Notes under the pieces: model-generated
What the model was told of the DNA's origin: nothing
The model's database searches: none
What the model saw: only the letters and a program-made list of their open reading frames with translations
Program-made: the position numbers and the translations under genes
In this document: positions 35,839 to 44,108 of the stretch, one piece after another
Layout of the letters: the number at the start of each line of letters is the position of its first letter
Numbering within the stretch: the first letter of the stretch is position 1
From: Kineosporia sp. A_224
Lineage (GTDB): Bacteria > Actinomycetota > Actinomycetes > Actinomycetales > Kineosporiaceae
Assembly: GCF_002198655.1 (NCBI RefSeq)
Contig: NZ_MWLN01000186.1
Location: 1 to 64,000 of the forward strand
DNA length: 64,000 nucleotides
Direction of reading: 5' to 3'

Positions 35839-38166
35839 ATGATCCGCGTGCACGGCGCGCGGGAGAACAACCTCAAGGACGTCGACGTCGAGATCCCCAA
35901 GCGCCGGCTCACGGTGTTCACGGGCGTCTCCGGCTCGGGCAAGAGCTCGCTGGTCTTCAGCACGATCGCCGCGGAGTCGCAGCGGATGATCAACGAGACC
36001 TACAGCACCTTCGTGCAGGGCTTCATGCCGACGCTGGCCCGCCCCGACGTCGACGTGCTCGACGGGCTGACGACGGCGATCATCGTCGACCAGGAGCGGA
36101 TGGGAGCCGACCCGCGCTCCACCGTCGGCACCGCGACCGACGCGAACGCGTTGCTGCGCATCCTCTTCAGCCGCCTCGGGCAGCCGCACATCGGCTCGCA
36201 GCAGGCGTTCTCCTTCAACGTCGCGTCGGTGAGCGGCGCGGGGGCGGTGACGTTCGAGCGGGCCGGGCGGACGACGAAGGAGCGGCGCAGCTTCAGCGTC
36301 CTCGGCGGGATGTGCTCGCGCTGCGAGGGCCGCGGGTCGGTCAACGACTTCGACCTCACGGCGCTCTACGACGACACCAAGTCGCTCAACGAGGGCGCGC
36401 TGACGATCCCCGGCTACAGCATGGAGGGCTGGTACGGCCGCATCTACCGCGGCTGCGGGTACTTCGACCCGGACAAGCCGATCCGGAAGTACACGAAGAA
36501 GGAGCTCGACGACCTGCTCTACCGGGAGCCGACGAAGATCAAGGTCGAGGGCATCAACCTCACCTACTCGGGACTCGTCCCGGCGATCCAGAAGTCGTTC
36601 CTCTCCAAGGACGTCGACGCGATGCAGCCGCACGTCCGCGCCTTCGTCGAGCGGGCGATCACCTTCACGACCTGCCCCGACTGCGGCGGCACCCGGCTCA
36701 ACGAGACGGCCCGGTCGTCGCGGATCGCCGGCACGAACATCGCCGAGGCGTGCGCGATGCAGATCAGCGACCTCGCCGGCTGGGTCAGCGGCCTCGACGA
36801 GCCGTCGGTCGCGCCGCTGCTCGCCGGTCTGCGGCACACCCTCGACTCGTTCGTCGCGATCGGGCTGGGCTACCTCTCGCTCGACCGGCCGTCGGGCACC
36901 CTGTCCGGCGGCGAGGCGCAGCGCACGAAGATGATCCGGCACCTCGGGTCGTCGCTCACCGACGTCACGTACGTCTTCGACGAGCCGACGATCGGGCTGC
37001 ACCCGCACGACGTCCAGCGGATGAACGCCCTGCTCCTCCAGCTGCGCGACAAGGGCAACACGGTTCTCATGGTCGAGCACAAGCCGGAGGCCATCGCGAT
37101 CGCCGACCACGTCGTCGACCTCGGCCCGGGTGCGGGGTCCGCCGGCGGTCAGGTGATGTTCGAGGGCAGCGTCGAGGGGCTGCGGCGCAGCGGCACGGTC
37201 ACGGGCAAGCACCTCGACGACCGGGCGACGCTCAAGCCCGCCGTGCGGACGGCGTCCGGCGTGCTCGAGGTCCGCGGCGCTGACATGCACAACCTCAAGG
37301 ACGTCGACGTCGACCTCCCGCTCGGGGTGCTCGTCGTCCTCACCGGGGTCGCCGGGTCGGGCAAGAGCTCGCTGGTCCGAGGGTCGGTGTCCGGGCGGGA
37401 CGGCGTCGTCACGGTGGACCAGGGCGCGATCCGCGGCTCTCGGCGGAGCAACCCCGCGACGTACACCGGGCTGCTCGAACCCATCCGCAAGGCGTTCGCC
37501 AAGGAGAACGGCGTGAAGCCGGCCTTGTTCAGCGCCAACTCCGAGGGCGCGTGCCCGGGCTGCAACGGCGCGGGCGTCATCTACACCGATCTCGGGGTCA
37601 TGGCCGGGGTCGCCATCACGTGCGAGGCCTGCGAGGGCAGGCGGTTCGACGGATCGGTGCTGGAGTACACGTTCGGCGGCAAGGACATCAGCGAGGTGCT
37701 CGCGATGCCCGTCGCCGAGGCGCTCGCGTTCTTCGGCGAGGGCCCGGCCCGGCTGCCCGCCGCACAGGCGATCCTCGCGCGGCTCGCCGACGTCGGCCTG
37801 GGCTACCTCAGCCTCGGCCAGCCGCTCACGACGCTCTCCGGTGGCGAGCGGCAGCGGATCAAGCTCGCGACGCACCTGGGGGAGAAGGGCGGTGTCTACG
37901 TCCTCGACGAGCCGACGAGCGGGCTGCACCTCGCCGACGTCGAGCAGCTCCTCGCCCTGCTCGACCGGCTCGTCGACTCCGGGAAGTCGGTCGTCGTCAT
38001 CGAGCACCACCAGGCGGTCATGGCGCACGCCGACTGGATCGTCGACCTCGGCCCCGGAGCCGGTCACGACGGCGGCCGCGTCGTCTTCGAGGGCACCCCG
38101 GCCGACCTCGTCACCGCCCGGTCGACCCTCACCGGGCAGCACCTCGCGGCGTACGTCGGCGCCTGA
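35839..38166 (+). CDS. UvrA-like ABC ATPase (UvrA2-type)
   Basis: 775 aa, about 170 shorter than UvrA. Two ABC modules: Walker [10 protein letters not shown] and GVAGSGKSS, signatures [11 protein letters not shown] and [11 protein letters not shown], Walker [14 protein letters not shown] and [13 protein letters not shown]. Zinc-type CxxC pairs ([28 protein letters not shown]) are kept, while the UvrB-binding region looks reduced. Such UvrA2/DrrC-like proteins are linked to resistance to DNA-binding drugs more than to bulk repair. Context with AraC and VOC fits that role. Confidence 0.92.
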
Positions 38167-40258: not shown

Positions 40259-40714
40259 TCAGTGCCAGTCGCTGATCTGGACGTCGCGCGGCGCGGGCGC
40301 ACCGTCGCCGTTCTCCACCAACGACTTCAGGCTCATGAGGAACGAGCCCCACTTGGTGCTGCAGTGGTGCATGAAGTCGACGGGCTCGGCCCAGCCGCGG
40401 TGCGCGAACAGGACGATCGTCCAGTCGCCGTCCTGACGCAGGTCCCAGTCGATCGTCGTCCCGACCCACTCCGGCGGGCCGTCGACGACGCGCCACTGCA
40501 GCCGCTCCGGCGCCTTCGCCTCGACGACCTCCATGTCGAAGCCGCCCACCGGCGGGAACCGGAACTCGACCACGCCGCCCGGGCTCGCGGCGTCGCCGCG
40601 CGCCGCGGTGCCCTCGGTCCACCAGCCCGCGAGGCCCTCGACCGTCGTCAGCGCGTCGTAGACGGCCTCCGGGGCCGCCGTCCGGACGCCCACCCTGTGC
40701 AGGATGTCCACCAT
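40259..40714 (-). CDS. SRPBCC-family (AHSA1-like) protein
   Basis: 151 aa from ATG 40714, chosen because AGGGGAG lies 8 nt upstream. Fold signature: HRVGVRTAAPEAVYDALTTVEGLAGWWTEGT and LQWRVVDGPPEWVGTTIDWDLRQDGDWTIVLFAHRGWAEPVDFMHHCSTKWGSFLMSLK. Such START-like proteins are regularly co-encoded with ArsR regulators and may bind hydrophobic ligands. Last gene of an SRPBCC-ArsR-SRPBCC operon. Confidence 0.88.
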   Translation of the reverse strand: MVDILHRVGVRTAAPEAVYDALTTVEGLAGWWTEGTAARGDAASPGGVVEFRFPPVGGFDMEVVEAKAPERLQWRVVDGPPEWVGTTIDWDLRQDGDWTIVLFAHRGWAEPVDFMHHCSTKWGSFLMSLKSLVENGDGAPAPRDVQISDWH

Positions 40715-40789: not shown

Positions 40790-41134
40790 TCAGTCCTGAC
40801 GTGCGACCTGGATCGCCTCGGCGATGCGCTTGATCCGCCGCAGGCGGGCGTCCCACGCCGACCCGACGGACGCCAGCTGCGCGACCGCGCGCGCGAGCTG
40901 GGCGTCGTCCACCCGGTAGCGCTTCTCCCGGCCGGCCGGCGTCCCGTGGACGAGGCCGACCCGGTCGAGGACGCCCAGGTGCTTGGCGACCGCCTGCCGG
41001 GTGACCGGCAGCTGCTGGCTGAGGCTGGTCGCGGTGCCCGCCTCCTCGAGGAGCAGCAGGTCGAGCAGCCGGCGCCGGGTCGGGTCGCCGATCGCCGACC
41101 ACAGGTCGTCGTCGACGGCCCCGGCAACCGTCAC
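40790..41134 (-). CDS. ArsR-family regulator
   Basis: 114 aa winged HTH: DLWSAIGDPTRRRLLDLLLLEEAGTATSLSQQLPVTRQAVAKHLGVLDRVGLVHGTPAGREKRYRV. No metal-binding His/Cys cluster, as usual for the SRPBCC-linked ArsR group. GTG 41134 overlaps the stop of the upstream SRPBCC gene by 4 bp. It probably binds the two matching sites at 41600 and 41646. Confidence 0.9.
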   Translation of the reverse strand: MTVAGAVDDDLWSAIGDPTRRRLLDLLLLEEAGTATSLSQQLPVTRQAVAKHLGVLDRVGLVHGTPAGREKRYRVDDAQLARAVAQLASVGSAWDARLRRIKRIAEAIQVARQD

Positions 41135-41589
41135 GGCCGCACGACCAGCGTCGCGACGTAGGGCACGATCCGCGGCAGGAAGTAGGCCCAGCCCTCGACG
41201 TGCTCGGCGAACTGCTGCTCCAGGACCGCGACCTCCCAGCCCATCTCGCGGAAACCGGTCTCGGTCATCCGCAGCAGCGTGCCGCTGCCCGACGGCGCGA
41301 GGTCGAACGTCACGAGCAGCGAGTTGCCCTCCGCCGCCGTCTCGCCGGCCGGGTGCGTCCAGCGGAAGACGAACGTCGACGGCGGCTTCGCGTCGACGAC
41401 GGTGAGCTCGACCACCGCTCCCCCGCCGTCGCGCTCGAAGACGATCTGACCGCTCGAGCCCGGCGTCGGGTCGTAGTGCGCCTCGTCCGGCCACCAGTGC
41501 TTGAGGTGGTCGGGACTGCTCACCACCTCGTAGACGACCTCGGGTGACGCCTCGACGTAGATCTCCTGCTCGATGGTCCCGAGCTCCAT
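41131..41589 (-). CDS. SRPBCC-family (AHSA1-like) protein
   Basis: 152 aa from ATG 41589 with GGAGG 6 nt upstream. Begins MELGTIEQEIYVEASPEVVYEVVSSPDHLKHWWPDEAHYDPTPGSSGQIVFERDGG and ends MGWEVAVLEQQFAEHVEGWAYFLPRIVPYVATL, a full START-like fold. First gene of the operon. Ligand unknown. Divergent from an ABC exporter with shared operators. Confidence 0.9.
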   Translation of the reverse strand: MELGTIEQEIYVEASPEVVYEVVSSPDHLKHWWPDEAHYDPTPGSSGQIVFERDGGGAVVELTVVDAKPPSTFVFRWTHPAGETAAEGNSLLVTFDLAPSGSGTLLRMTETGFREMGWEVAVLEQQFAEHVEGWAYFLPRIVPYVATLVVRP

Positions 41590-41599
41590 GTCCGCCTCC

Positions 41600-41618
41600 T
41601 GCAACGTTTGGTTGCATG
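41600..41618. promoter_or_regulatory. Operator copy 1 (ArsR candidate)
   Basis: TGCAAC at 41600-41605 and GTTGCA at 41611-41616, followed by TG. Inside the 5' leader, 11 bp before the SRPBCC start codon. The same 19-nt site recurs at 41646 with four changes. Confidence 0.7.
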
Positions 41619-41645
41619 TGAGGCTAGACCGAGGTGGCATCAATA

Positions 41646-41664
41646 CGCAACCACTGGTTGCATG
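41646..41664. promoter_or_regulatory. Operator copy 2 (ArsR candidate)
   Basis: GCAACC and GGTTGC around a 3-nt centre, the same orientation as copy 1 and 46 bp apart. A minus-strand -10 (TAGCCT) lies between the copies, with a possible -35 inside this copy. Confidence 0.7.
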
Positions 41665-41723
41665 AAATTCGTCGGGGCCGGGCGCTTGACCTTGACGCCG
41701 GGTCAGGGTTGCAGCCTGACGTC

Positions 41724-42491
41724 ATGACCACGACACACGCCATCGAGACCGTGGGGCTCACGAAGTCCTACGGCGACCACGCAGTCCTGCGGGGCGTCGA
41801 CCTGAGGGTCCCCCGCGGGTCGGTCCTCGCCCTGCTCGGCTCCAACGGCGCGGGCAAGACGACAGCGGTGAAGATCCTCGCGACGCTGCTCAGGGCCGAC
41901 GGCGGGACCGCGACCGTCGACGGGCACGACGTCGCCACCCAGGCGGCCGAGGTCCGGGCCTCGATCAGCCTCACGGGCCAGTTCGCGGCCGTCGACGAGG
42001 TCCTCACCGGGCGCGAGAACCTTGTGCTCGTCGCCCGGCTGCGCCGCATCACGGACGCGGCCGCGGTGGCCGACGGGCTGCTCGAACGGTTCGGGCTGAC
42101 CGACGCGGCCGGGCGCCGGGTCGCGACGTACTCCGGCGGGATGCGCCGCCGGCTCGACATCGCGATGAGCCTCGTCGGCAGCCCGCGGGTGCTCTTCCTC
42201 GACGAGCCGACGACCGGCCTCGACCCGCAGTCGCGGCTCGAGGTCTGGCGGACCGTCCGGGACCTCGCCGGTCAGGGCATCACCGTCCTGCTCACGACGC
42301 AGTACCTCGACGAGGCCGAGCAGCTCGCCGACCGGATCGCGATCCTCCACGAGGGCCGCATCATCGCCGACGGCACGCTCGCCGAGCTCAAGCGGCTCCT
42401 CCCGGCGGCCACGGTCGAGTACGTCGAGAAGCAGCCGACCCTCGAAGACGTCTACCTGGCGATCGTCGGTCACGACGATCCCCGCCCGTAG
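41724..42491 (+). CDS. ABC transporter ATP-binding protein (DrrA-like)
   Basis: 255 aa. Walker [15 protein letters not shown], signature [15 protein letters not shown], Walker [17 protein letters not shown], switch [18 protein letters not shown]. The daunorubicin-resistance type has this YSGGM signature and the C-terminal TLEDVYLAI. It energises the permease encoded 11 bp downstream. The promoter region is shared with the SRPBCC-ArsR operon. Confidence 0.93.
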
Positions 42492-42501
42492 GGAGCCACC
42501 G

Positions 42502-43275
42502 ATGTCCACCGCCGAGTCCACCGCCTTCGTCCACGACAGCACCGTCCTGCTCGGGCGGTCCCTGAAGCACATCCTGCGCAGCCCGGACACCATCATCACG
42601 ACGGCGGTCACGCCGATCACCATGCTGCTGCTCTTCGTCTACGTCTTCGGCGGCGCCATCGACGTCGGCCGCGGCGCGTACGTCGACTACCTGCTGCCCG
42701 GGATCCTGCTCGTCACCGTCGCCTCCGGCATCGCCTACACCGCGTTCAGGCTCTTCACCGACGTCTCGAGCGGCATCTTCGAGCGGTTCCGGTCGATGCC
42801 GATCGCCCGGTCGGCCCTGCTGTGGGGGCACGTCCTCACCTCGGTCGTGGCAAACCTCGTGTCGCTCGTCCTCGTCGTCCTCGTCGCCCTGGCGATGGGC
42901 TTCCGGTCCGGCGCCGGGGTGCTCGCCTGGCTGGCGGTCCTCGGGATCATGGTGCTCTTCACCCTGGCCCTCACCTGGCTGGCCGTGATCCCCGGGCTGA
43001 CCGCGACGTCCGTCGACGGGGTGAGCGGGTTCTCCTACCCCCTGGTCTTCCTGCCGTTCGTCAGCTCGGCGTTCGTCCCGACGGCCGGCATGCCGGGACC
43101 GGTCCGCTGGTTCGCCGAGCACCAGCCGGTCACCCCGATCGTCGACACCCTGCGCGCCCTGCTCGCCGAGCAGCCGGTGGGCAACGGCATCTGGACGGCG
43201 CTCGCCTGGTGCGTCGGGCTGCTCGTCGTCGCGTACCTGCTCGCCATGCGCATCCACCGCGGCAAGACGTCATGA
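42502..43275 (+). CDS. ABC-2 type permease (DrrB-like)
   Basis: 257 aa with six membrane segments. ABC-2 features: LKHILRSPDTIITTAVTPITMLLLFVYVFGGAI at the start, and YLLPGILLVTVASGIAYTAFRLFTDVSSGIFERFRSMPIARSALLWGHVL in the middle. Exports an unknown hydrophobic compound with the upstream ATPase. Confidence 0.92.
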   Translation: MSTAESTAFVHDSTVLLGRSLKHILRSPDTIITTAVTPITMLLLFVYVFGGAIDVGRGAYVDYLLPGILLVTVASGIAYTAFRLFTDVSSGIFERFRSMPIARSALLWGHVLTSVVANLVSLVLVVLVALAMGFRSGAGVLAWLAVLGIMVLFTLALTWLAVIPGLTATSVDGVSGFSYPLVFLPFVSSAFVPTAGMPGPVRWFAEHQPVTPIVDTLRALLAEQPVGNGIWTALAWCVGLLVVAYLLAMRIHRGKTS

Positions 43276-43307
43276 CCCCAGCGGCAGGAAGAGCGGACAC
43301 TGGAGCC

Positions 43308-44108
43308 ATGCTGACGATCGGCCAGCTCGCGTCGTACGCCGGTGTGACGGTGCGAACGGTCCGGCACTACCACGCCAAGGGACTGCTGCCCGAGCCCGAA
43401 CGCGACCGCTCCGGCTACCGGCGCTACGGCGCGGCCGCCGTCGTCGAGCTCGTGCGGATCCGCACCCTCGCCGACGCGGGCGTCCCGCTCTCCCGGGTGC
43501 GCGAGCTGCTGGCCGCGGACGACGAGGAGTTCGTGGCGGCGGTCGAGGACATCGACCGCCGGCTGCGGGCCGAGATCCGGGAACGCCAGGTGCACCGCGA
43601 GCGGATCGCGAAGCTCGCGGCCGGCGACAGCCTGGCGCTGCCGCCCGAGGTCGTCGCCTACGTCGACCGGATGCGCGAGCTCGGCTTCCGCGAGCGGCTC
43701 GTCGAGATCGAGCGTGACAGCTGGACCCTCATCGCGGCCCAGATGCCCGAGCAGGTGGGCCCGTGGATGGCGATGAAGCAGGCCCAGCTCGAGGACGAGT
43801 CCCTGCGCCGGCTGTACCTGGACGTCGGGGAGCTCGTCGACTGCGGGCCGGACGACCCACGGCTGCCGGTGCTCGCCGACCGGGTGGCAGCCTTCATCGA
43901 GGCGGCCGCGGACGGCGCGGAGGGCGTGGAGGAGGAGCACCCGGTGAGCGACGACCTGGTCGCTCTGCTCGACGCGGCGTTCGTCGAGTGCTTCCCGGGC
44001 GCCGTCCGCATGCTCGAGCTCCTCGAGGAGCGAGGGTGGACCGGCTGGACGAACATCCGGCGCAGCACCCCTGCCCCGGTGGCGCCCGCACTTCCTGCGG
44101 ACTGCTGA
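43308..44108 (+). CDS. MerR-family transcriptional regulator
   Basis: 266 aa. N-terminal winged HTH MLTIGQLASYAGVTVRTVRHYHAKGLLPEPERDRSGYRRYGAAAVVELVRIRTLADAGVPLSRVRELL, a coiled coil (residues 80-110), then a long helical effector domain of unknown ligand, without the Cys of metal-sensing MerR. It lies 32 bp after the ABC exporter genes and may be a drug-responsive activator of them. Confidence 0.92.
   Translation: MLTIGQLASYAGVTVRTVRHYHAKGLLPEPERDRSGYRRYGAAAVVELVRIRTLADAGVPLSRVRELLAADDEEFVAAVEDIDRRLRAEIRERQVHRERIAKLAAGDSLALPPEVVAYVDRMRELGFRERLVEIERDSWTLIAAQMPEQVGPWMAMKQAQLEDESLRRLYLDVGELVDCGPDDPRLPVLADRVAAFIEAAADGAEGVEEEHPVSDDLVALLDAAFVECFPGAVRMLELLEERGWTGWTNIRRSTPAPVAPALPADC

Follow-up and report, generated by a model that had tools for sequence, protein, structure and literature searches.

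The putative operon in Kineosporia sp. A_224 that encodes an ArsR-family regulator between two SRPBCC proteins is preceded by a pair of palindromic sites, and we hold with considerable confidence that this pair is the operator of the operon-encoded ArsR and that the adjacent DrrAB exporter is a separate system. Very probably, the paired operator is best read as a means of autorepression. The sequence comparison supports the existence of the site pair, its position and conservation at the promoter, its link with one clade of ArsR proteins, and the independence of the exporter. The window analyzed here is a 64,000-nucleotide stretch (positions 1 to 64,000 of contig NZ_MWLN01000186.1), and the coordinates of the following features refer to it.

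40259 to 40714, minus strand: second SRPBCC gene (AHSA1-type), 151 aa; Pfam AHSA1, E = 2.6e-12, above cut-off
40790 to 41137, minus strand: ArsR-family regulator gene, ~115 aa; Pfam HTH_20 and HTH_5 above cut-off, NCBIfam match
41131 to 41589, minus strand: first SRPBCC gene (AHSA1-type), opening the operon, 152 aa; above the Pfam AHSA1 cut-off (E = 3e-16)
41601 to 41615, no strand assigned: predicted operator site GCAACGTTTGGTTGC, at the operon's predicted transcription start
41621 to 41626, minus strand: predicted -10 box TAGCCT, 18 bp from the -35 box; TAnnnT conserved across loci
41645 to 41650, minus strand: predicted -35 box TTGCGT, read from the sequence; conserved in the alignment, being part of the site
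41647 to 41661, no strand assigned: predicted operator site GCAACCACTGGTTGC, which overlaps the operon's -35 box

The gene labels of the initial annotation were borne out, as both SRPBCC proteins pass the Pfam AHSA1 cut-off and the ArsR protein, the ABC ATPase, the ABC-2 membrane protein, and the MerR protein were each confirmed by Pfam. The window thus carries an ArsR-family HTH gene and AHSA1/SRPBCC genes in one operon, in which the first SRPBCC gene ends within arsR on the same strand. By sequence, the closest solved structure to this ArsR is 2oqg, another ArsR-family protein (E = 1.9e-18).

The initial annotation had also described two palindromic copies 46 bp apart that bracket a minus-strand -10 box, and rechecking the letters in the window upheld this. 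The two copies, TGCAACGTTTGGTTGCATG (positions 41600 to 41618) and CGCAACCACTGGTTGCATG (positions 41646 to 41664), lie at an in-register distance of 46 bp and share the palindromic core GCAAC-N5-GTTGC, and the site at 41647 to 41661 is a perfect palindrome (GCAACCA-C-TGGTTGC). With up to two mismatches, GCAACCNNNGGTTGC had 8 matches in the window versus 2.48 expected, a number reached in none of 100 shuffles; with no or one mismatch, it matched the two sites only. Across the 7.2-Mb genome, GCAAC-N5-GTTGCA occurs at these two places alone, one of them readable on both strands, and the backward-read control gave 7 and 6 matches. The site pair is not a chance occurrence in this genome, where the ArsR protein of the operon seems, from the site counts, to have one strong target. 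A wider regulon in the same genome was considered and rejected, with 17 sites (the pair included) matching GCAACCNNNGGTTGC at one mismatch versus 39 for the backward control.

One of the two sites overlaps the -35 box, and the predicted operon start (~41613 to 41615) falls inside the other (41601 to 41615). Reading the minus strand past the -10 box, one meets this second palindrome, the adjoining AGGAGG, and then the ATG at 41589. A sigma-70 consensus scan reported no promoter at the start of the minus-strand operon, so the predicted promoter rests on conservation: among 70 aligned loci of the 45-bp spacing class, the opening T and the A of the -10 box are each kept in 69 and the final T in all 70.

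To follow the pair beyond the window, we read the best 80 of at least 318 ArsR relatives, which are the closest ones and not a random draw, plus 3 further relatives. Flanks of the 80 loci extended up to 4.5 kb, some being shortened by contig ends, and the genera represented among them include Streptomyces, Micromonospora, Nocardia, Frankia, Cellulomonas, and Kribbella. Absence of the site from homologous loci would have told against the initial annotation; what we found was the site pair ahead of the operon at every one of the 83 loci. Both sites are exact in 71 of these, and one site is off by one letter in 12. Most loci (70) have a spacing of 45 bp, 12 have 46 bp, and L071 alone has 40 bp. 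The window belongs to the 46-bp class, whose additional base falls within the promoter spacer and thereby leaves both sites in place on the -35 box and the start. Relatives of the first SRPBCC gene were present in all 82 loci where the gene was callable (it was not called in L047), and 74 of the 83 loci have a second SRPBCC gene no more than 1.4 kb downstream of arsR, the 9 others being L036, L072, L082, L094, L100, L102, L104, L109, and L118. Two further genomes (G096 and G113) have an orthologous operon, with ArsR proteins 79 to 81% identical, that carries the start site only, and nothing like the second site was found 38 to 53 bp upstream of it. The pair is therefore not indispensable at the ArsR operon.

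The same arrangement was recovered from the DNA pattern alone. In 394 genomes of the class, the two-site pattern occurs at 51 places in 48 genomes, and the backward control over the same 394 genomes gave none among the matches listed. All 51 places were read as loci; 46 have a full ArsR relative within the flank and 1 has a remnant. Of the remaining four, two lie before a lone second-type SRPBCC gene and two before a short-chain dehydrogenase gene. These four places belong to three genomes (G113, G096, and G391), each of which has this ArsR elsewhere, which ties the operator to the ArsR protein in trans and not through neighborhood alone. Locus counts from the two scans are not independent, because the sets are partly shared (for example, L047 and L192) and some loci coincide (L034/L039 and L035/L040 are the same places); L105 and L112 share one contig.

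Several individual places are of interest in their own right. In L175 and L178, the pair precedes the lone second-type SRPBCC gene, and the ArsR operons of the same two genomes keep one site. Away from the ArsR operon, L169 has an exact pair at its positions 1501 to 1560 before a short-chain dehydrogenase gene at 1587 to 2315, and L191 has an exact pair at 1536 to 1596 followed by such a gene at 1619 to 2428. The pattern stands directly before arsR in L161, where the first SRPBCC gene is missing, and before the second SRPBCC gene in L189, where only a 29-residue remnant of ArsR is left.

The sites also tend to follow the predicted recognition helix of the regulator. We compared 29 ArsR relatives, including that of the window (L023, L025, and L030 of an initial 32 were left out, having no alignment), and by a rule drawn up after the rows had been seen, 12 of the 13 relatives with the helix P[VI][TS]RQA[VI]x[KR]HL have GCAAC..GTTGC sites nearby, compared with 2 of the 16 relatives with other helices, each of these having a single site. 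The exception among the 13 is L010, which has a fitting helix yet no site. A sister ArsR clade (42 to 55% identical; L011, L012, L015, L215, and L216), likewise encoded next to an SRPBCC gene, has site pairs of the form GCAAC-N6-GTTGC, which are wider by one base and spaced ~29 to 45 bp apart.

From these features we infer a model for ArsR binding, repression, the signal, and the function of the SRPBCC proteins. The helix PVTRQAVAKHL would place ArsR dimers on the GCAAC half-sites, with one dimer over the -35 box and the other over the transcription start. Because dimers in these two positions would keep RNA polymerase off the promoter, ArsR would repress its own operon. A small, probably hydrophobic, nonmetal signal may then free ArsR from the DNA, whereupon both SRPBCC proteins could bind, sequester, or neutralize the inducing compound. 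The role given to the SRPBCC proteins is suggested by the family to which they belong: lipid-binding proteins are among the members of the START superfamily, and CalC confers calicheamicin resistance at the price of its own inactivation (as told in PMC2701414, in the parts covered). For the ligand and the SRPBCC role as proposed here, we would put the chances at somewhat below even.

The nature of the signal bears on whether the regulator is a classical ArsR/SmtB metal sensor whose operon is released upon binding of a metal ion. The general NCBIfam ArsR/SmtB metalloregulator model does score just above its cut-off (56.6 versus 55 bits), but the specific CmtR model falls far under its own (61.2 versus 150 bits), and cysteine is absent from the window ArsR and from 79 of the 82 relatives long enough for counting (the ArsR of L036 was called as 5 aa), which speaks against a thiol metal site. 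Moreover, the operon has no metal transporter, and the ArsR group paired with COG3832 has been described as lacking metal motifs (PMC2701414, in the parts covered). Given the missing cysteines and the CmtR score, we rejected metal sensing, to which we attach hardly any probability.

A different role for the same genes, with the SRPBCC protein acting as a toxin and ArsR as both antitoxin and autorepressor, is a prediction that Makarova and others drew from the statistics of gene pairs (PMC2701414), and Rv2035-Rv2034 has been listed among such pairs (PMC3968373). The former authors themselves, in the parts covered, deem antibiotic resistance the most plausible function of ArsR-COG3832. Against toxicity, a COG3832-ArsR pair of Stenotrophomonas was nontoxic both in E. 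coli and in its own host (PMC7650669, in the part covered). The gene content argues the same way, since two SRPBCC genes accompany one ArsR gene in 74 of 83 loci and in two genomes the operator is followed by a lone SRPBCC gene at a distance from arsR. We therefore regard a toxin-antitoxin-like pair as extremely improbable and retain the autorepressed operon with SRPBCC proteins that may handle the inducing compound.

Divergently from this operon, the plus strand carries the exporter genes.

41686 to 41717, plus strand: putative drrA promoter, TTGACC, 20-bp spacer, CAGCCT
41724 to 44108, plus strand: neighboring module, judged to be outside this system, with the DrrA-type ATPase gene at 41724 to 42491
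42502 to 43275, plus strand: ABC-2 membrane protein (DrrB) gene of the neighboring module
43308 to 44108, plus strand: MerR regulator gene of the neighboring module

The initial annotation had joined these genes and the SRPBCC-ArsR-SRPBCC operon into one sensing-and-export module, in which ArsR at shared sites would control both the operon and the divergent DrrAB exporter in response to one hydrophobic compound. The layout lends this some appeal, as a divergent gene order around the sites is shared by the window and another member of the genus, and the upstream site lies 25 bp from the -35 box of drrA. Yet the DrrAB-MerR genes adjoin the ArsR operon in only 2 of the best 80 loci, both from the genus of the window, and in one of those two (L035, from one of three members of the genus) ~770 extra bp separate the operon from DrrAB-MerR. 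This insert carries another open frame, methyltransferase-like by reading alone.

The exporter, in addition, appears to have its own control. The drrA spacer holds a MerR-type palindrome, ACCTTGAC-N5-GTCAGGGT, at 41689 to 41709. Promoters of MerR-type activators have a palindrome within a spacer of 19 to 20 bp. The drrA promoter resembles them in its palindrome between the -35 and -10 boxes, its 20-bp spacer, and the MerR gene in its cluster, and we read it as MerR-type because TTGACC and CAGCCT flank the palindrome and the drrA ATG follows 6 bp after the end of CAGCCT. With CAGCCT as the predicted -10 box, that short distance would give a leaderless transcript. In a comparison of 32 DrrAB loci (the best 30 DrrB loci, that of the window included, plus L034 and L035), TTGACCnTGAC-N5-GTCA precedes drrA in 17 of 17 loci with MerR and in none of 15 loci without it, and it occurs once in the window, at 41686. 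GCAAC-N5-GTTGC is absent from all 29 DrrAB loci that we read from other genera. MerR would act at the drrA palindrome, which, unlike the paired operator, belongs to the neighboring module.

With linkage confined to one genus among the loci read and a MerR-type palindrome of its own before drrA, the claim of a joint module did not hold up, and we consider it very unlikely. We conclude from the site distribution that two modules, each presumably self-regulated, abut here. In this strain, ArsR may still exert some side effect on drrA, because 25 bp separate the end of the upstream site from the -35 box of drrA. Farther away on the plus strand, ~3.4 kb from the operator region, the window has a 775-aa open frame (35839 to 38166), which looks like a UvrA-type double ATPase.

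On a broader scale, the GCAAC-N5-GTTGC pair might mark a regulon of many actinobacteria, comprising ArsR, two SRPBCC proteins, and sometimes a short-chain dehydrogenase behind such a pair (L169 and L191), that senses and neutralizes one class of hydrophobic nonmetal compound. We offer this as a speculative proposal that is rather unlikely to be right in full. Under such a regulon, an SRPBCC protein could possibly serve as the sensor that pulls ArsR off the DNA, and the sister ArsR clade would use the same half-site in the form GCAAC-N6-GTTGC, whose arms stand one base farther apart.

Pairs of ArsR and AHSA1 genes are common but lack an established function, and the regulators are often labeled metal sensors or antitoxins. 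A highly specific, promoter-locked site pair found across many actinobacterial genera would be a ready reporter in the hunt for the signal, and it points to further candidate targets, namely, lone SRPBCC genes and short-chain dehydrogenase genes. The analysis also cautions against taking an adjoining exporter as a clue to function.

The initial annotation had called the system undescribed, which is only partly right. The paired operator was not found in the open-access literature among the matches listed, whereas the ArsR-COG3832 gene pair has been in print since 2009 as a likely antibiotic resistance or toxin-antitoxin-like module (PMC2701414). The Pfam AHA1 family has been noted to take in ArsR-family proteins as well (PMC2577659, in the part covered). 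What we describe is very probably an autorepressed ArsR-AHSA1 operon with an unusually well conserved operator, and three published systems offer comparison. One study of Frankia noted that a large group of its ArsR genes may share operons with AHSA1 genes; the link was not worked out, and the part of that paper covered describes no operator (PMC4531530). The group resembles the operon described here in its gene arrangement, and two Frankia loci among our 83 (L049 and L111) carry the site pair. The Rv2034-Rv2035 system is similar in combining an ArsR gene, an SRPBCC (polyketide_cyc2) gene, and a palindrome at the promoter, and Rv2034 has been shown to repress its own operon, which includes the SRPBCC gene; it differs in having one site, with the palindrome CCGTAAGT-N4-ACTTACGG, and in its other gene content (PMC3338718, in the parts covered). 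The third is the ArsR-COG3832 (AHSA1/SRPBCC) pair of Makarova et al., for which the covered parts of the paper give no operator description and which likewise joins an ArsR free of metal motifs to an AHSA1-type START-fold neighbor in an operon-like arrangement (PMC2701414). Unlike that pair, the operon described here places one ArsR gene between two SRPBCC genes and has a defined, promoter-locked paired operator.
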